From Longimicrobiales bacterium (GTDB taxonomy: Bacteria; Gemmatimonadota; Gemmatimonadetes; Longimicrobiales; Gaopeijiaceae), in the NCBI GenBank assembly GCA_028278645.1, contig JANQDZ010000057.1, positions 1-64,000 on the forward strand: a DNA stretch of 64,000 nt, in the 5' to 3' direction. The translations under genes and the position numbers were made by a program. Positions 1,849 through 61,980 of the stretch are shown in pieces. Under the pieces are notes generated by a model. The model did not search any database. It was not told the DNA's origin and saw nothing but the letters and a program-made list of their open reading frames with translations. Position 1 is the stretch's first letter. Every line of letters starts with the position of its first letter.

Positions 1849-3972
1849 ATGTCGGTGCGGGGTATCCACTCTCCAGAACGATCCGTCCGCCGAGGGCGTT
1901 TAACTGTCATCTTCTTCTTTGTCTACGGCCTCATTTGCCTGGCTCTTCAGGGCGCAACCCGGAACCTGGCGGCCCAGCCGACTCCCCTTCTCCTGGATAC
2001 CCAGACGCGGGATCTCCTCCATCAGGAATTGAGCGGAGAGATGGCCAAGGAATACGCCATCGCCATCTCGCGATTCCATCGGATCCAAGGGTCCCGGGGT
2101 TACCGGGCCGCGGGCGAGTACGTGATTCGAACCCTACTGGAGTCCGGCTTCGAACCGTCTGACGCTTTCGTGGAGTCTTTTCCGTCCGATGGGAAGGTCG
2201 TGTACCAGACGTGGCAATCCCCTTCCGGATGGGATATCGAGCGGGGGGAGCTGAGGATGGTGGAACCCTTCGAAGAGCGCCTCATCGGCTATCCCGAAAT
2301 CGCCATGAGCGTCATGACCTACTCCAACGCGGGCCACGCCAAGGGGGAGCTGGTGTGGGTGGGCCCCGGCACCGACCCGGAGCACTACCAGGGCAAGGAC
2401 GTCCAGGGGAAGATCGTGCTCTGCACGGGCTACGGGGGAGACGTTCATCGCCTGGCGGTCCTGGAGTACGGCGCATCGGCCATCGTCTGCTACCTGGACG
2501 ACGAGCGGGCGATGGAATTCCCTGACATGCTGGCGTACACCGGGATGTGGCCCCGCACCGAGGAGTTGGATCGGGTCCGCTTTGGCTTCAATATCACCCG
2601 GCGCATGGGAGAGCGGCTTAGAGGACTGTTGGAGGCCGGTCAGAGGGTCGTTCTGGACGCCACCGTGGAAGGGATCGGGCTGGAACCGTTCTGGATGGAC
2701 GTCCCGGTGGCTGTGATCCCCGGTAGCGATCCGGACGCCGGGGAACTGGTGTATTGCGCCCATTTGGATCACCCGAAAGAGTCTGCCAACGACAACGGAT
2801 CCGGCTCGGCCGCCATGATGGATATGGCGGTCACCTTGAAGCGGCTGATCGACCGGGGGCGCCTGCCCCAGCCCCGCCGCCCCCTGCGGTTCCTTTGGGT
2901 CCCGGAGTTCTATGGGATGATGGCTTACGTAGACGCCCATCCGGAGATGGTGGGACCAGCCCTTGGTGGGAAAACGTTGGGCAACATCAACCTCGACATG
3001 GTCGGGGAAAACCTTGAAATGATCCACACCAGGATGATCCTCACCCGCACCCCCGCGTCCATCCCGTCGGTAGTGAACGACGTGGTAGAGAACATGGCGG
3101 AGATGGTGACCCGGATGAACATCAGGACCCCCAGAGGGAGTCTCTCCTTCCCCAACATCGCCTTGACCCCGTATTCCGGCGGAAGCGATCACAACATTTT
3201 CATCGACCGGAAGGTCCCGGGGATGATGCTGGGGCACTCACCCGACTACACCCACCACACCTCCGAGGACACCCCGGACAAGGTGGATCCGGTGGAGTTG
3301 GAACGTACGGAGGTTCTGGCAACCGCCGCCTTTTGGTACCTGGCGAACCTTGACGACGAGCAAGGGGTGGAGCTGGCCTACCTTGCCGGGGCCAAGGCGG
3401 CGGAACGGCTGGGGGAGGCAACCCGAGAAGGCATGCGCCATCTGCTGACTGCTCCTCCGGAAGCACTGGACCACGCTTGGGCGGAGGTGGAAAACCGGAT
3501 CCAGCATCATTTGGAGTGGGGGGAGACGGCGGTCCGGGACGTCCTCCATTTCAACGATTCGCCCCCCGTCGAGGCGGCGGTCCAGGCTCAGCTGGCGATC
3601 CTGGAAGGCCAAGCCCGCACGCTCTCCAGAGGTGTTGCCACGGCGGCCCGGGGTGAGGGAGCGGAGGGAAGATCCGCGCCTCCCCTCTCTCGGCAGGAGG
3701 ACAACCGGGTGCCCCGGAGGCTCACCAGAGGCCCCTTGGCCGGCGGCCTCCCAGCCAATCGCCTGACTCCGGAGAGAGCCGCCTGGTACTCGTCTTCCCA
3801 GAACCCTCTCCGAGGGACCTATGCTTTTGAGCTGGTGAACTTCATTGACGGCCGAAGAGACATAACCGGAATCAGAGACGCATTGAGCGCCGAGTTCGCA
3901 CCCGTTCCGACTCAAGCCGTGGGCCGGTTTGTGGAAGACCTGGTTGCTGCCGGGTTGGCCGAGTGGAAGTAG
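1849..3972 (+). CDS. M28-family zinc aminopeptidase, secreted, with C-terminal helical domain
   Basis: Predicted exported metallopeptidase of 707 residues. An N-terminal signal/anchor (about residues 18-42) is followed by a PA-like insert (about 165-260, including GKDVQGKIVLCTGYGG) and an M28 core. Visible M28 features are AHLDHPKES near residue 304, NDNGSGSAAMMDMA near 314, VPEFYGMM near 350, NLDMVGE near 380 and GHSPDYTHHTSEDT near 462, matching the expected His/Asp/Glu zinc ligands and catalytic acid. The last 65 residues (FELVNFIDGRRDITGIRDAL onward) look like a small winged-helix or PqqD-like module. ATG at 1849 has an AGGAG upstream. It is followed after 12 nt by a HAD phosphatase gene, so the two are probably cotranscribed. 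The substrate is unknown. Confidence 0.88.
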   Translation: MSVRGIHSPERSVRRGRLTVIFFFVYGLICLALQGATRNLAAQPTPLLLDTQTRDLLHQELSGEMAKEYAIAISRFHRIQGSRGYRAAGEYVIRTLLESGFEPSDAFVESFPSDGKVVYQTWQSPSGWDIERGELRMVEPFEERLIGYPEIAMSVMTYSNAGHAKGELVWVGPGTDPEHYQGKDVQGKIVLCTGYGGDVHRLAVLEYGASAIVCYLDDERAMEFPDMLAYTGMWPRTEELDRVRFGFNITRRMGERLRGLLEAGQRVVLDATVEGIGLEPFWMDVPVAVIPGSDPDAGELVYCAHLDHPKESANDNGSGSAAMMDMAVTLKRLIDRGRLPQPRRPLRFLWVPEFYGMMAYVDAHPEMVGPALGGKTLGNINLDMVGENLEMIHTRMILTRTPASIPSVVNDVVENMAEMVTRMNIRTPRGSLSFPNIALTPYSGGSDHNIFIDRKVPGMMLGHSPDYTHHTSEDTPDKVDPVELERTEVLATAAFWYLANLDDEQGVELAYLAGAKAAERLGEATREGMRHLLTAPPEALDHAWAEVENRIQHHLEWGETAVRDVLHFNDSPPVEAAVQAQLAILEGQARTLSRGVATAARGEGAEGRSAPPLSRQEDNRVPRRLTRGPLAGGLPANRLTPERAAWYSSSQNPLRGTYAFELVNFIDGRRDITGIRDALSAEFAPVPTQAVGRFVEDLVAAGLAEWK

Positions 3973-3984
3973 GAGGAGACCCGG

Positions 3985-4449
3985 ATGAGTCCAGTCACCA
4001 TTGAGCTGCCGTCAGGACCGGTGACATTTCGGCGTTTGGTCCTGGATTTCACTGGCACGCTGTCTCACAGGGGGGAGCTGATACCCGGTGTGGCTGAGCG
4101 CCTGACGGCCCTGGCCGACGGCCTCTCCGTCACGGTTCTCACGGCCGACACGTTCGGTACGGCCCGTGAACAGCTGAGAGACCTCCCACTCTCCATCCAG
4201 CTCATCGGAGACGGAGAGGAAAAAGGCGAGGTTCTCTCCTCCTTGGACCCGGAGACTGTCATTGCCGTTGGGAATGGGAGAAACGACGTACTCATGGTTA
4301 GGATCGCCCGTGTCGGCATCGCCATCATGGGCCCCGAAGGGGCAGCGGGGGAGCTTCTTTCGGCCGCGGACGTGGTGGTCCACGATATCAACCACGCCCT
4401 GGACCTGGTCCTGGATCCTCTCCGGCTGAAAGCCACGCTGCGAGACTAA
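3985..4449 (+). CDS. HAD-family phosphatase, soluble P-type-ATPase-like
   Basis: A 154-residue minimal HAD hydrolase without a cap domain. Motif I is LDFTGTL with the nucleophile Asp21; the second Asp of the usual DxD is replaced by Thr, as happens in small HAD proteins resembling the P domain of P-type ATPases. Motif II is VTVLTADTFGT near 50-59. Motif III/IV is AVGNGRNDVLMV near 94-105, with the Asp pair reduced to a single Asp. It closes with ADVVVHDINHALDLVLDPLRL, typical of this subgroup. It has a good Shine-Dalgarno (GGAGGAG) and lies 12 nt after the M28 peptidase gene. Physiological substrate unknown. Confidence 0.85.
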   Translation: MSPVTIELPSGPVTFRRLVLDFTGTLSHRGELIPGVAERLTALADGLSVTVLTADTFGTAREQLRDLPLSIQLIGDGEEKGEVLSSLDPETVIAVGNGRNDVLMVRIARVGIAIMGPEGAAGELLSAADVVVHDINHALDLVLDPLRLKATLRD

Positions 4450-56969: not shown

Positions 56970-58325
56970 TCAAGCCGTATAATCGACCCGATCCGCAGCC
57001 TTCCCATTGATGAGGATGGACCGGGAGAGCATGTCATGGACCCCCCCAACCTCGATCTGCTCCTCGTGGTGTTCCATGAGCTGAGTCAGCTGCCGTTTGC
57101 AGTTGGAGCAGGCGGTGGCGACGTAGACCGCACCGGTATCCCGGATTTGGTCCATTTTTTTCTTCCCGGACACTTCCATCCGGAATTCGATAATGTCATC
57201 CATGGCCGACAAGCCGCCACCTCCACCGCAGCACCAGTTCTCGCCTCGGTTCGGGTACATCTCCCGGAAGTCCTGACATGAGGCTTCGAGGATGGCCCGG
57301 GGCTCGTCTACGATGTTGCAGGACCGACCGAAGTTGCATGGATCGTGGTATGTGACGGGCTGCGGGTTCTTGGACTTGTCGAACTCGATCAGCCCTTCCT
57401 TGATCCGGTCCGCCGTCCACGGCATGCAGTTCTCGACCTTAAAGGGCAGGTCACCCCACCACCCTGACTTCTCCATCATCATCTTCATGATACGGTAGGC
57501 GTGCCCACACTCTCCCATGAGCATCACGTCGCACTCGAGCTCCTTCGCCGTATCCACGTATAGCTTGTTGTCGGTCTTCATGTCACCGTCGTTACCGGTG
57601 AACAGGCCGTAATTCGCTCCGTCGAAGCACTTGGAGCTCATGGTCCAGTCGTCGGCCATTCCCAGGACGTGGAAGACCTTTGCCACACCCATGGTCGCCT
57701 CCGGATTGACCAATACGTCGCCGGAGGGAGGCACGTAGAAGTACTTGGCTCCGACCTTGTCGATGGGGATTTTGATTGGGGTGCCGTGCTCTTCCTCCAT
57801 CTCCTCCTCGAGGAAGTCGATAGCGGCCCGGAAGGCCGACTCTCCCGCTCCGTCCGTATTCCCCGTCTCCAGAGAGATGGCAACAACCTTAGCCATGGTG
57901 TCGGGCGTCATGCCGAGCTTATCCAGAATCGCCCGACCCTTCCGTGTGATGACAGAGTGGTCGATCCCGAACGGACAGAAGGTGGCACACCGACGGCAAC
58001 CGGTGCACTCGTACCAGATCTTCTGCCAATCTTCGAGGTCGTCCGGATCAAAATCCTCGGCACCCGCTAGTTTGCCGAACAGCTTTCCGGATGTGGTGTT
58101 GTACTTGTTGTAGATCCGACGGATGATGTCTGTCCGTTCGGCCGGGTTGAACCGCTTCTCGCTCTTTCCGTAGTAAACCGGACAGACCGAAGCACAGGTC
58201 CCACACTTCGCGCACATTTCCATGTACATGCGCATGGACCTCGGGCCGTCTTTGATGGCGCTGATGGAATCGACGACGGTCTTTTTGATTTCTTCTCTGG
58301 TAAGTTCAGTGTCGGAATCAGACAT
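56970..58325 (-). CDS. DsrK/HdrD-like iron-sulfur protein
   Basis: A 451-residue cytoplasmic Fe-S protein. Two [4Fe-4S] motifs lie at Cys38/41/44/48 (CAKCGTCASVCPVYYG) and Cys107/110/113/117 (CTGCRRCATFCPFG). The C-terminal CCG region has HDPCNFGRSCN (about 332), NWCCGGGGG (about 374) and ATACSNCKRQ (about 408), the pattern that in DsrK/HdrD holds the special catalytic Fe-S cluster for disulfide reduction. DsrMK complexes pass electrons between membrane quinones and the DsrC disulfide. Its b-type cytochrome partner gene ends 19 nt upstream, and a DsrC-like gene precedes that. It is shorter than typical DsrK (about 540) and nearer HdrD in length. Confidence 0.9.
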   Translation of the reverse strand: MSDSDTELTREEIKKTVVDSISAIKDGPRSMRMYMEMCAKCGTCASVCPVYYGKSEKRFNPAERTDIIRRIYNKYNTTSGKLFGKLAGAEDFDPDDLEDWQKIWYECTGCRRCATFCPFGIDHSVITRKGRAILDKLGMTPDTMAKVVAISLETGNTDGAGESAFRAAIDFLEEEMEEEHGTPIKIPIDKVGAKYFYVPPSGDVLVNPEATMGVAKVFHVLGMADDWTMSSKCFDGANYGLFTGNDGDMKTDNKLYVDTAKELECDVMLMGECGHAYRIMKMMMEKSGWWGDLPFKVENCMPWTADRIKEGLIEFDKSKNPQPVTYHDPCNFGRSCNIVDEPRAILEASCQDFREMYPNRGENWCCGGGGGLSAMDDIIEFRMEVSGKKKMDQIRDTGAVYVATACSNCKRQLTQLMEHHEEQIEVGGVHDMLSRSILINGKAADRVDYTA

Positions 58326-58344
58326 GGTTATCTCCCCTCCCCCC

Positions 58345-59067
58345 TCATTGCTTCCGGATGAGTTGATGAGTGAAGAAGATCCCCCCGAAGTGGAGGATCT
58401 TGCTGAACGGGATGTACATGAGGAGCAAGAGGGCCAGGCACATGTGAGTCAGGAATACACCGTTTTGCAGAGCCGCGGCGTCGGCCACTCCGCCGAAGGT
58501 GGCGAGGTTCGCGAAGTACTCCCGGGTCAAGGCCAGGTCGAAGTGTTCAGGCGCAAACCTCATCATGTTCCCGGTGATGACGATGGCTCCGATCAGGGAT
58601 AGGGCCAGAATGTCACCCACGCTGGTGATTTCCCTCACCCGAGGGAGCAGCAATCGGCGGACCAAAAGAATCACCGCCGTGACCAGGATCAGGATCCCAG
58701 CCGCGCCACCGGCACCACTGGACATCCCTTGGATGCCGGCTTCGGTCATACCCAGGGTCATGAACACCTGGTCGATGTTCGAGACCACCCGAAGGTGGCC
58801 GAGAAAAATCAGAGCCAAAACGACGTGGAAGCCCCATGCAAAAACCCAGAGGGGCTTATCGCCTTTGTAGAGGCTCCTAAAAAACACCGCCTCCTTTGCG
58901 GTGTTGATGGCGTTGGCTTTTCCCTCGGGAGAAGGAGCTGGAAAGAGCGTCATGGCCGGGGCCGGGAGTTTCATCCAACTCCTTACCCGCCACACCATGG
59001 CCACCACGAAGACAAGGACCGCCACGTATGGCAGCACCCCGCCTATGAAGAACCTTAGAATATCCAT
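58345..59067 (-). CDS. DsrM/NarI-like cytochrome b subunit
   Basis: A 240-residue membrane protein with five to six hydrophobic segments. The NarI/DsrM pattern is seen in LWVFAWGFHVVLALIFLGHL (haem-ligand His candidates near 81 and 91), SLIGAIVITGNMMRFAPEHF and NGVFLTHMCLALLLLMYIPF (further His near 210), ending SKILHFGGIFFTHQLIRKQ. It should transfer electrons between quinol and the DsrK-like partner. AAGGA precedes the ATG. It lies between the DsrC-like gene (92-nt gap) and dsrK-like (19-nt gap) on the same strand. Confidence 0.85.
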   Translation of the reverse strand: MDILRFFIGGVLPYVAVLVFVVAMVWRVRSWMKLPAPAMTLFPAPSPEGKANAINTAKEAVFFRSLYKGDKPLWVFAWGFHVVLALIFLGHLRVVSNIDQVFMTLGMTEAGIQGMSSGAGGAAGILILVTAVILLVRRLLLPRVREITSVGDILALSLIGAIVITGNMMRFAPEHFDLALTREYFANLATFGGVADAAALQNGVFLTHMCLALLLLMYIPFSKILHFGGIFFTHQLIRKQ

Positions 59068-59159
59068 CAGCCCGTTCCTTTTTCGAGCCCCTGCTCGGGG
59101 GTTGGTGTTCTCAGCCTCTCAGTTTTTTGGGCGCCAAACGCGCCCGGTGCCGCTTGGCC

Positions 59160-59483
59160 TCAGGAGCATCCCGGGGGCCTGGGCAAGCCAGACAACCGGT
59201 AGGCCCCTTTCACCATTCCGCAGGGAAACAGCTCACAGATGTCCGCTGAGCTCAGCCCCGTCTCCTGGTGGACTTTGATCACCGGTGGACCGAGGCCGTA
59301 GGTCTTGTAGTAGCTCTGGACGAATTCGATGACCTTCCAGTGATCGTCGGTGAGGTCACCGACTCCGTGCTCGATGGCCAGCCTCTGGGCTTCGGCACGG
59401 TTCCAATCCTCCATGGTTTTGAGGAACCCGTTGGGTCCCAGATCGGGTACCGGGTGAGCTTCCTGGTTCTCCATCATGATCAT
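59160..59483 (-). CDS. DsrC/TusE-like sulfur carrier with only the penultimate cysteine
   Basis: A 107-residue DsrC-family protein: DLGPNGFLKTMEDWNRAEAQ, LTDDHWKVIEFVQSYYKTYG and the end ELFPCGMVKGAYRLSGLPRP then PGCS. The penultimate-position Cys (CysA) is kept. The second Cys of DsrC (CysB, normally in KGAC) is Tyr here (KGAY), while a new Cys is found seven residues earlier (FPCG). TusE-type homologues also carry only CysA. ATG at 59483 follows AAAGG. It is 45 nt downstream of an HTH regulator and 92 nt upstream of the DsrM-like gene, which suggests it serves that membrane complex. Confidence 0.88.
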   Translation of the reverse strand: MIMMENQEAHPVPDLGPNGFLKTMEDWNRAEAQRLAIEHGVGDLTDDHWKVIEFVQSYYKTYGLGPPVIKVHQETGLSSADICELFPCGMVKGAYRLSGLPRPPGCS

Positions 59484-59528
59484 TGCTCTCAACCTTTCGG
59501 GTTGGGCCGTGGATCGATGAGCCCGGTG

Positions 59529-60308
59529 TCAGACGCACTCCACCGGGAAGCTTTCTATGACCGCTTGGATTTGTGCCAGATCGAAGGGTTTCTCAATTCG
59601 TCCAGCGATGAAGGAGCTACCGTTCAGGGAGCCCTTTCTATTGGACCGCCCGCGGCGCACGGCCGCCACAGTCTTGAGGCCAGGTAGTCGAGGGTCGCGG
59701 GCAAGGCTTTCCAGGAGTCCGTTTTCCCGGGCCGCCGTGAACTCCAGGTCCACAACAGCAAAAGCGGGGAGGAAGGTCTCCACCGCTGCGGAGGCCTCGT
59801 AGGCGTTACGTGCGAAACGAAGGACGATGCCCTCATCTGCTTCTGCTTCGAGCCGTTCCCTCAGGTCCGGGTCGGATGAGACGATCAGTACGTTGGTGGG
59901 AAGCCCCACTACCCGCCGGTAGTATGCACAGTCGTCACAGGAGGTCGGGCAAAAGCGGCGGGCGTGACCGCTGTCGATTCCCAGGGTAGCGATCTGGAAA
60001 CACCAGGAGGCTCTCACGCGATAAACGACGCAGTTCACGCACTCGTCCCGGACGGCGCCACCCTCACTCAGGTATTCCCAACACCGGAGAGGTGCATCGC
60101 CTGGGGGCCGCTCGAGTTTGAGGTTTGGGGTCTTTTGCTGACTGAGGAGGGGGCGGAGCTTCTCCAGCTTGATCCGGTAGTGGCCTCCCGGGGTCCGGAT
60201 CCCTTCCAGCCGTCCGGTCCTGATCCAGTTCAAAACCGTGGCCGGGGTGACGGCGCACATCTGAGCCGCCTGTCCGGTAGTAAGCCATGTTCGACCTTGG
60301 TCTTCCAT
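59529..60308 (-). CDS. HTH / seven-cysteine CW-like / receiver-like regulator A
   Basis: A 259-residue regulator in three parts. Residues about 7-50 are an excisionase/MerR-type HTH (LTTGQAAQMCAVTPATVLNW, IRTGRLEGIRTPGGHYRI). Residues about 72-135 hold seven Cys with spacing C-x13-C-x2-C-x9-C-x16-C-x3-C-x2-C (RCWEYL, ECVNC, SWCFQ, FCPTSCDDCAYYR), resembling two-CW cysteine domains and suited to an Fe-S cluster or zinc. Residues about 138-259 resemble a receiver: VLIVSSDPDLRERL, AFAVVDLEF with a candidate phospho-Asp, and IEKPFD with the conserved Lys-Pro. ATG at 60308 is preferred to GTG at 60317. Paralog of the divergent gene at 60514. No kinase is nearby. Confidence 0.82.
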   Translation of the reverse strand: MEDQGRTWLTTGQAAQMCAVTPATVLNWIRTGRLEGIRTPGGHYRIKLEKLRPLLSQQKTPNLKLERPPGDAPLRCWEYLSEGGAVRDECVNCVVYRVRASWCFQIATLGIDSGHARRFCPTSCDDCAYYRRVVGLPTNVLIVSSDPDLRERLEAEADEGIVLRFARNAYEASAAVETFLPAFAVVDLEFTAARENGLLESLARDPRLPGLKTVAAVRRGRSNRKGSLNGSSFIAGRIEKPFDLAQIQAVIESFPVECV

Positions 60309-60322
60309 ACGAATCACCCATC

Positions 60323-60340
60323 GGGTTTTATGGATTCGCG
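60323..60340 (+). promoter_or_regulatory. Direct repeat copy 1, candidate operator (GGGTTTTATGGATTCGCG)
   Basis: It shares GGGTTT-TATGGATT with copy 2 at 60448-60465, in the same orientation, both inside the 200-nt divergent intergenic region. It lies in the predicted leader of regulator A. Confidence 0.55.
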
Positions 60341-60365
60341 CAGACCACTTGATTCATTTTTCGAG

Positions 60366-60394
60366 AAATTACATACTAAAACGCCGATTGTCAA
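60366..60394 (-). promoter_or_regulatory. Putative sigma-70-type promoter for regulator A
   Basis: On the minus strand TTGACA (60394-60389) is followed after 17 nt by TAATTT (60371-60366). The predicted start near 60359 leaves about a 50-nt leader that contains repeat copy 1 (60323-60340). The region is far more AT-rich than its surroundings. Confidence 0.5.
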
Positions 60395-60447
60395 CCACAT
60401 TGAACAGAAAAAACAATAAAAACGTATCGACTATTGACATTCGTCTT

Positions 60448-60465
60448 GGGTTTATGGATTTTGCG
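60448..60465 (+). promoter_or_regulatory. Direct repeat copy 2, candidate operator (GGGTTTATGGATTTTGCG)
   Basis: Copy 2 overlaps the region just downstream of a TTGACA (60434-60439), a candidate -35 for regulator B, whose -10 is weak. A protein bound here would meet RNA polymerase at the promoter, consistent with auto- or cross-regulation. Confidence 0.55.
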
Positions 60466-60513
60466 TTGTAGTGCTTTTCCGCGTTTAAACTCATCGAATG
60501 GAAAAAACACTTC

Positions 60514-61311
60514 ATGGCAGGGAACAAACCCGAGCTCCTTAGCACCGGCGAGGTTGCACGACTCTGTGGGGTCACCCGTGACGCGGTTCTGAAATGGATC
60601 AAGAAGGGGAAGCTCCCCGCCACGCAAACGCCTGGGGGCCACTTCCGCATTCCCAGGGAAGCGTGTCAGGGCATGGCCATGGAAGGGCCACACGAGAAAC
60701 CCGTGGTGACCCATGAAGGCGAGCCAGCCGAATCTGGACCTCTTCGCTGTTGGGAATATTTCGGGGACGATGGTTCTCCTCGGGAGGTCTGCGAGAGCTG
60801 CCTCGTCTATTTGGCTCGGGCCCAAAACTGCTTTCGACTGGCCGAATTGGGGGAAGAGTCTGGCCATCGACTCCACTTCTGTCGGCATGATTGCCGCACG
60901 TGCGCCTACTACCGTGCCTGCCAGGGCCTGGCCACTGAAGTCCTGCTGATCACCAGGGATGAAGGTCTCATTCGCCGTGTGGAGGCTGGAATCGATCCGG
61001 AGCTGGTATCGATGCGTTTTGCCAGGTCCGGGTACGAGGGATCAGCGATCATCTCCACCTTCAGTCCAGCCCTGATCATTATGGACAGTGATCTGACGGA
61101 GGTTCGAACCGGGCTTCTCCCCGAGTCGATCCTGGGCGATGAGCGAATCCCTGCCGTTCGTGTGGTCGTGGCATGCAGAAGAGGGCACGAAGACCTTTTC
61201 CAGGGAACCCCGGTTCATCGGATCCCTGCCCCCTTCACCTCCGATGAAGTAAGCGCGCTAGCTGAAGAGGTGGTCCAGAACCACTCCGGGGCCCCACGGG
61301 ATGTAGCCTGA
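60514..61311 (+). CDS. HTH / seven-cysteine CW-like / receiver-like regulator B
   Basis: A 265-residue paralog of regulator A. HTH: LLSTGEVARLCGVTRDAVLK with WIKKGKLPATQTPGGHFRI (about 8-47). The seven-cysteine domain has identical spacing (RCWEYF, VCESC, QNCFR, FCRHDCRTCAYYR; about 76-140). The receiver-like part begins LATEVLLITRDEGLIRRVEA and keeps an Asp in ALIIMDSDL, but the Lys of the receiver is replaced (IPAPF instead of EKPF), so phosphorylation-type switching is doubtful. Cys-based redox or metal sensing is more likely; this is inference. It is followed after 21 nt by the tandem DsrC-like gene, so the two form one arm of the divergent module. Confidence 0.82.
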   Translation: MAGNKPELLSTGEVARLCGVTRDAVLKWIKKGKLPATQTPGGHFRIPREACQGMAMEGPHEKPVVTHEGEPAESGPLRCWEYFGDDGSPREVCESCLVYLARAQNCFRLAELGEESGHRLHFCRHDCRTCAYYRACQGLATEVLLITRDEGLIRRVEAGIDPELVSMRFARSGYEGSAIISTFSPALIIMDSDLTEVRTGLLPESILGDERIPAVRVVVACRRGHEDLFQGTPVHRIPAPFTSDEVSALAEEVVQNHSGAPRDVA

Positions 61312-61332
61312 CTTCCATGAATGGAGGCTCGA

Positions 61333-61980
61333 ATGGGCCAGGTGAGCTTTAAGGGAGAGACCTACAGCCTGGACAAGCACGGGTTCCTCGATCCACCTGA
61401 GCAGTGGAATGAGGATTTCGCAGAGGGCATGGCCAAAATGGTCGGGATCACCAAGGGGCTGACCGATCGTCATTGGCATATCATCAACTACCTCAGGAAG
61501 AAATTCCTCGAAGAAGAGACGGTCCCGGTGGTGGTGATGGCGTGCAGTGAGAACAAGATGCGGCTGTCTGAGCTCAGATACCTCTTTCCAGCCGGATACC
61601 ATCGGGGGGCCTGCAAGATCGCCGGCATCAACCACCGTTTCATGTACGAGACCAACTATTGGCTCACGTACGAGACCTGGGCTCCCCTCAAACCCAGGTA
61701 TGACCTGGACCAGGTCGGCTTTCTGAAGGACTATCAACGGTGGGACGAAGACTTCGTAGAAACCCTCATGGGGCAGTTGGATCCACCGGCAACCCCGACG
61801 GAGAGACACCTTCAGGTGGTTCGATTCCTGAGAAACTACTTCGTTGTGAACGGAGTGATCCCGGCGGTCTTTGAGGCGTGCACCGCAAACGACCTGACCT
61901 TGGAGGAGTTGAAGGAACTCTTCCCCGCCGGATACCGTAGGGGAGCTTGCAGGATGGCCGGCCTCCCGTTTTACGGGTAA
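61333..61980 (+). CDS. Tandem DsrC-like protein keeping only CysB in both halves
   Basis: A 215-residue fusion of two DsrC-like domains. Half 1 (about 1-103): YSLDKHGFLDPPEQWNEDFA, LTDRHWHIINYLRKKFLEEE, YLFPAGYHRGACKIAGI. Half 2 (about 118-215): YDLDQVGFLKDYQRWDEDFV, TERHLQVVRFLRNYFVVNGV, ELFPAGYRRGACRMAGLPFY then Gly and stop. Each half keeps the inner cysteine (CysB, in RGAC). Neither has the penultimate CysA: half 1 runs on as INHRFMYETN and half 2 ends before it. The start at 61333 is used because GGAGG lies 6 nt upstream (ATG at 61321 is weaker). It follows regulator B by 21 nt. It may hold sulfur, pair with a CysA-only DsrC, or serve a regulatory role. Confidence 0.87.
   Translation: MGQVSFKGETYSLDKHGFLDPPEQWNEDFAEGMAKMVGITKGLTDRHWHIINYLRKKFLEEETVPVVVMACSENKMRLSELRYLFPAGYHRGACKIAGINHRFMYETNYWLTYETWAPLKPRYDLDQVGFLKDYQRWDEDFVETLMGQLDPPATPTERHLQVVRFLRNYFVVNGVIPAVFEACTANDLTLEELKELFPAGYRRGACRMAGLPFYG

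Follow-up and report, generated by a model that had tools for sequence, protein, structure and literature searches.

In dissimilatory sulfur metabolism, DsrC is viewed as the redox hub, and its working is defined by two cysteines, CysA and CysB. TusE and RspA have the DsrC fold with fewer than two of these canonical cysteines, as TusE carries CysA only and RspA-type proteins do not require the conserved cysteines. Both are reportedly branches of the DsrC superfamily, as set out by Venceslau in 2014. In this study, a six-gene locus was investigated in a 64-kb window, the whole stretch of DNA analysed, on contig C94 of a 4.9-Mb, 103-contig Gemmatimonadota draft genome (G000). The locus encodes a DsrM-like cytochrome b, a DsrK-like Fe-S protein, two DsrC paralogues (DsrC-A and a tandem DsrC) and two regulators, A and B. 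As in DsrMKJOP with DsrC, a DsrM-type cytochrome b, a DsrK-type CCG Fe-S protein and a DsrC partner are encoded together, but the module is without J, O and P, its DsrK and DsrM fall under the curated cut-offs, the cysteines of its DsrC have moved and it has regulators of its own. It also resembles HdrDE of methanogens in combining a membrane cytochrome b with a CCG protein that would act on a disulfide, though the partner here is probably a protein, DsrC-A, and not the coenzyme heterodisulfide CoM-S-S-CoB. We consider, with a probability of roughly 60%, that the module is an accessory, self-regulated thiol/disulfide electron relay belonging to organisms that possess the dissimilatory dsr pathway.

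The cysteines of DsrC-A were compared in an alignment of 22 DsrC-A proteins with 21 canonical DsrC proteins, the latter mostly from the same set of genomes. CysA, at position 109, is Cys in all members of both groups, while the CysB site at position 98, Cys in 21/21 canonical proteins, is Tyr or Phe in 22/22 DsrC-A. Every DsrC-A protein carries Cys at both positions 86 and 91 (22/22); the canonical proteins carry Tyr at the first and Ser/Thr at the second (21/21 each). These new cysteines lie in the motif I-C-x-L-F-P-C-G. Cys and Tyr are swapped between the CysB site and position 86, and one more Cys stands before the last helix. Owing to this swap, the label 'CysA-only', which the original prediction gave to the protein, was dropped; CysA is kept and CysB lost as it stated, but two further invariant cysteines are present. 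As judged from the alignment, the pattern is a diagnostic signature of DsrC-A, and suggests a relocated redox partner for CysA. The likeness of DsrC-A to TusE and RspA lies in a DsrC fold with fewer than two canonical cysteines, and the differences in the extra invariant C86 and C91, the dedicated DsrMK and the dsr context; the cysteines of DsrC-A are also strictly conserved, and with C86, C91 and C109 invariant (22/22) it does not show the RspA-type pattern.

In an alignment of 14 tandem DsrC proteins, each half harbors CysB and a second invariant Cys (C71 and C183), and the protein terminates ahead of the CysA position. The earlier description of this protein as 'CysB-only' was therefore correct about CysB in both halves and the missing CysA, but did not account for C71 and C183. 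The arrangement CysB-x10-CysA in the C-terminal arm, which marks a canonical redox DsrC, is found in neither paralogue, because DsrC-A is without CysB and tandem DsrC without CysA. Both genes nevertheless belong to the family, scoring 81 and 133 bits against a curated PF04358 cut-off of 24.9, and both stay below the TusE equivalog cut-off (NF008562, 191 bits) with 38.9 and 64.2 bits.

The DsrMK-like parts look catalytically intact from their residues. All eight ferredoxin cysteines of DsrK are kept in 17/17 module homologues and the CCG cysteines in 15-16/17, most of the misses being gaps or cut sequences, whereas five histidines of DsrM (81, 91, 175, 208 and 226) are invariant in 19/19, four of them common to the canonical DsrM of the host. 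The CCG catalytic cysteines and haem b histidines of a DsrMK/HdrDE-type reductase are present, and the DsrM- and DsrK-like identities proposed earlier were borne out by family matches. Comparatively, the window proteins score low against the curated models, with 346.5 bits for NF045796 DsrK (cut-off 400) and 92.3 bits for NF038037 (cut-off 300), while the canonical DsrK and DsrM of the host score 719 and 485, far above the same cut-offs. The module DsrK proteins form one clade (support 1.0) separate from canonical DsrK, and none of the module loci surveyed encodes J, O or P subunits.

With reference to conservation, 84,980 species genomes were scanned with an alignment of the regulator, which gave 197 relatives, and 79 loci were kept; their neighbourhoods were surveyed, and 19 module loci were clustered all against all. 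DsrC-A, DsrM and DsrK occur together in 19/19 loci, the regulator in 18/19 and tandem DsrC in 12/19, and the clustering recovered no conserved neighbours beyond this core set. These loci carry about ten phylum-level record labels, namely Gemmatimonadota, Elusimicrobia, Planctomycetota, 'Deltaproteobacteria', Latescibacterota, Acidobacteriota, LCP-89, Zixiibacteriota, Calditrichaeota and Chitinivibrionia. Two divergent regulators were observed in the Gemmatimonadota loci and the Elusimicrobia locus, and a single regulator elsewhere. DsrC-A was present in 24 of the 51 genomes examined, 17 of which also have tandem DsrC, and scores separate the groups: at least 134 bits for DsrC-A, at most 117 for canonical DsrC and at most 78 for the tandem halves. 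Among 80 Latescibacterota genomes, DsrC-A was detected in four and tandem DsrC in the same four and no others. This recurrence of the regulators, DsrC variants and DsrMK in many genomes agrees with the original prediction of one conserved unit as against a random neighbourhood.

The module had been proposed as 'stand-alone'. It is true that no sulfur enzyme lies inside the window itself, but the host holds the whole dissimilatory pathway. Contig C42 carries aprA, qmoABC, canonical DsrC, dsrMKJOP, dsrA and dsrB, with DsrA, DsrB, DsrK and DsrM far above their curated cut-offs, and two sat genes are located elsewhere in the genome. A stand-alone system was rejected for this genome because dsrAB, aprA, sat and the rest are on other contigs. 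Genomes with the module or its regulator are usually dsr-bearing as well, since dsrB above cut-off was found in 37 of 48 regulator-bearing genomes compared with 5 of 200 in a Gemmatimonadota sample, and the three genomes of that sample with a full-length regulator (>100 bits) are all within the five that bear dsrB. A relative from another family (G166) has the six genes too (L035 9494-14563), with dsrB 4-7 kb away. At 3828-4349, this locus also encodes a MerR regulator of HspR-like type that has a similar CWE cysteine-rich stretch; a further DsrMK pair close to dsrB lies next to it. The opposite thought, that dsrAB nearby would make the set ordinary sulfur oxidation, was half right, as the genome does contain dsrAB; the DsrC variants and the regulators, though, lie outside the ordinary pathway.

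Contig C19 of the host ends in a DsrL-like fragment and also harbors additional DsrK homologues, a DsrN-like synthase and a third paralogue of the regulators. In its module (L037 3423-11385), this third paralogue stands next to a DsrK, a macrodomain protein, a DsrK-receiver fusion, a PAS histidine kinase and a response regulator. Second modules of this type were noticed at about 15 loci from several phyla, usually lying downstream of a regulator from that family. The gene order at the start of C42 (dsrB and a DsrD-like open reading frame, ORF) and at the end of C19 (DsrL-like and DsrN-like genes) suggests that C42 and C19 are neighbours on the chromosome. The DsrD-like ORF, 82 aa long and 3' of dsrB (C42, 221-469), resembles DsrD, and the Pfam and NCBIfam models gave no confirmation.

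Regulators A and B share 39% identity. An AlphaFold2 model of regulator B (predicted local distance difference test score, pLDDT, 86.9) displays a winged helix-turn-helix (wHTH) at residues 8-55, a cysteine-rich region at 79-137 and a receiver fold at 141-255, the last recognised by structure comparison (Z 15.2, root-mean-square deviation 2.2, 115 aligned). The wHTH is closest to BldC (best PDB sequence match 6amk, 2e-9), and both regulators score below the cut-off of 77 of the BldC model NF033787 (43.3 and 33 bits). BldC is known to occupy 9-bp direct repeats with its subunits arranged head to tail (PMC5859096). A MerR-like wHTH and 9-bp direct-repeat sites are common to BldC and the regulators, but BldC is a protein of 68 residues that lacks any other domain (PMC5859096), whereas the regulators add a seven-Cys region and a receiver-like domain. 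Six of the seven cysteines are invariant in 54/54 regulators and the seventh is kept in 52/54. No Pfam model matched this region in any of the 54, and in the PDB comparison the hits went to the receiver domain, so that this region was barely probed. In the receiver-like domain, the phospho-Asp is kept in 52/54, while the second acidic residue (33/54) and the Lys (18/54) are degenerate. The original prediction called these proteins redox-sensing regulators; the conserved seven-Cys region could indeed sense redox state, whereas sensing itself we infer.

Direct repeats with a lag of 9 were detected in the 260 bp upstream of 73 regulator genes, with a consensus of about AAAACCCAT. The count at this lag was 357, against 45.8 +/- 12.2 in shuffles (z = 25.6), and every other tested lag in the same promoters gave a z of at most 1.6. 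With similar promoters removed, the repeat was found in 39 of 58 against 12.7 (maximum 20) in shuffles, and in a held-out test 36 of 59 promoters were above 99% of the null. At the sequence level this signal corresponds to a BldC-like 9-bp direct-repeat site, to which binding is predicted. In the window, the region between the regulator genes harbors direct repeats and no inverted repeats, and AATCCATAAAMCC has just two exact matches in the 4.9-Mb host genome, at 60324-60336 and 60448-60460, both in this region. A sigma-70 scan gave a single weak match. Operator-like sites were also noticed in three Acidobacteriota loci (L069 12666, L071 6061 and L070 10422), upstream of dsrD/dsrN- or aprA-side genes, and these form a candidate dsr regulon.

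We infer the reaction, its direction, the partners, the binding of the regulators and the signal as follows. The DsrM-like cytochrome b would exchange electrons with the membrane quinone pool and pass them to the DsrK-like Fe-S protein, whose CCG cluster would make or break a disulfide (or polysulfide) on the dedicated DsrC-A. In DsrC-A, the disulfide would form between CysA on the C-terminal arm and C86 or C91 instead of CysB, and the tandem DsrC, where present, would probably serve as a second partner or as a sulfur/thiol acceptor. Both regulators may bind their own promoter region at the 9-bp direct repeats in the fashion of BldC, and may adjust the operon on a signal from the seven-Cys region, the receiver-like domain or both. 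There is also an unlikely variant, in which the DsrC couple is split over two proteins, so that CysA of DsrC-A and CysB of tandem DsrC form an intermolecular heterodisulfide, which the DsrMK-like complex would reduce or form like HdrDE with CoM-S-S-CoB, and the cysteine-containing BldC-type regulators would read the state of the couple.

Several observations weigh against the accessory relay. Tandem DsrC is absent from 7 of the 24 DsrC-A genomes, and is therefore not an obligatory partner everywhere. Most loci were found via the regulator, which makes its presence partly a matter of construction, although in loci reached via DsrC-A instead the regulator was adjacent in 6/7. The position weight matrix (PWM) scan placed no operator above threshold upstream of the host's own dsr operon. 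Finally, 5 of the 24 DsrC-A genomes (G202, G206, G210, G216 and G224) are without dsrA or dsrB; among them G202 and G206 have aprA, and G210 and G224 only canonical DsrC. G216, a Phycisphaerales metagenome-assembled genome with the whole module (L141, 7.8-12 kb), is the only module genome with no dsrB, aprA or canonical DsrC, and speaks for the original proposal of a redox system independent of dsrAB. Since G216 is a draft of uncertain completeness, and the host and most other module genomes have dsrAB, we regard that proposal as very improbable.

We rank a sensory role as the main rival, a tentative but possible reading in which the regulators would be informed of the redox state of quinone or sulfur by the DsrMK-like complex together with the DsrC variants, DsrC-A or tandem DsrC being regulatory DsrC proteins and the output gene expression instead of respiration. 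It is plausible because a DsrK-receiver fusion, a PAS histidine kinase and response regulators stand beside the third regulator in the paralogous C19 module; the regulator is moreover the most constant neighbour outside DsrC-A, DsrM and DsrK, and the operator is also found 5' of dsrD/dsrN- and aprA-side genes in a few Acidobacteriota. Yet the full set of catalytic Fe-S and haem ligands is conserved, beyond the needs of a pure sensor, and the window-type module has no kinase or receiver fused or conserved. The DsrMK pair could also be a paralogue in the ordinary pathway that serves canonical DsrC, with the DsrC variants and regulators incidental. Extra dsrM2K2 pairs occur in sulfate-reducing microorganisms among peat Acidobacteria, where dsrM2/dsrK2 beside dsrAB is described as not uncommon (PMC6018796), and the canonical pathway is present in our host; both cases are extra dsrMK in dsrAB genomes. 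However, their position by a regulator and CbiA/DsrD-like genes suggests that the Acidobacterial pairs are of the C19 type (DsrK_c19a), a clade different from the window DsrK, and no DsrC variants were reported with them (PMC6018796). As DsrC-A with its invariant diagnostic cysteines stands in 19/19 module loci, we find this explanation improbable, and we retain the accessory relay.

No description of the module was found in the open-access literature searched, and an earlier mention in subscription papers is possible; the searched passages of two large dsr surveys (PMC10504309 and PMC10591310) make no mention of such regulators or DsrC variants. The earlier claim of an undescribed system holds in that sense, but its parts are variants of known families, and it is the combination of parts, the cysteine rewiring and the operator that appear undescribed. 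The paralogue DsrC-A persists under about ten phylum-level labels, always with the moved cysteines, and is tied to its own DsrMK and an operator-regulator pair. Such conservation points to a second thiol circuit, so far unrecognised, among sulfate/sulfite respirers that do not belong to the cultured groups, and this would change the reading of dsrC, dsrM and dsrK hits in metagenomes. For dsr-associated genes, the regulator is also a candidate transcription factor, and a specific candidate binding site goes with it.

The six genes in two divergent arms, as originally described, were recovered with the families assigned to them (Table 1). The minus arm reads regulator A, DsrC-A, DsrM-like and DsrK-like, and the plus arm regulator B and tandem DsrC. 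Fer4/CCG models matched DsrK, and HTH_17/MerR models both regulators.

Table 1. Features of the module locus, in window positions.
Feature	Position	Strand	Characteristics
DsrK-like Fe-S protein	56970..58325	-	451 aa; two [4Fe-4S] motifs and CCG catalytic domain, C330-x34-CC-x39-CxxC
DsrM-like cytochrome b, NarI-type	58345..59067	-	240 aa; PF02665 4.5e-21
DsrC-A, DsrC paralogue	59160..59492	-	CysA = C109, CysB replaced by Y98, new C86 and C91; PF04358 8.7e-23
Regulator A	59529..60317	-	BldC/MerR-type wHTH, seven-Cys region, receiver-like domain
Intergenic region with candidate operators	60318..60513	.	Between the regulator A and regulator B genes
Candidate operator 1 (CGAATCCATAAAACCCGA)	60321..60338	-	9-bp direct-repeat type; PWM 15.9
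Candidate operator 2 (AAAATCCATAAACCCAAG)	60445..60462	-	PWM 21.8
Regulator B	60514..61311	+	Same architecture as regulator A
Tandem DsrC, two DsrC domains	61321..61980	+	CysB in each (C94, C206), no CysA; PF04358 5.4e-39, two stretches

The locus is flanked by a DUF1846 gene on one side and a serine dehydratase gene on the other, neither of which is among the genes conserved at other loci. The true start codon of DsrC-A may lie further inside the annotated ORF. For tandem DsrC, an alternative start at 61333 is possible, and its stop follows directly after the GLPF motif.

Tandem DsrC was also noticed in other arrangements. In a Latescibacterota genome (G240, L152 6210-7355), it stands alone, next to an Rrf2-type regulator. 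Three consecutive tandem DsrC genes in a Zixibacteria genome (G223, L135 7541-13485) lie beside Mvh-type hydrogenase subunits and an HdrA-like ORF, and Val replaces CysB in their second halves. At another locus (G242, L138 4906-7783), the gene is immediately 5' of a cysteine desulfurase fused to a SelD-like (AIR synthase) domain, an arrangement that hints at a role in sulfur or selenium delivery.

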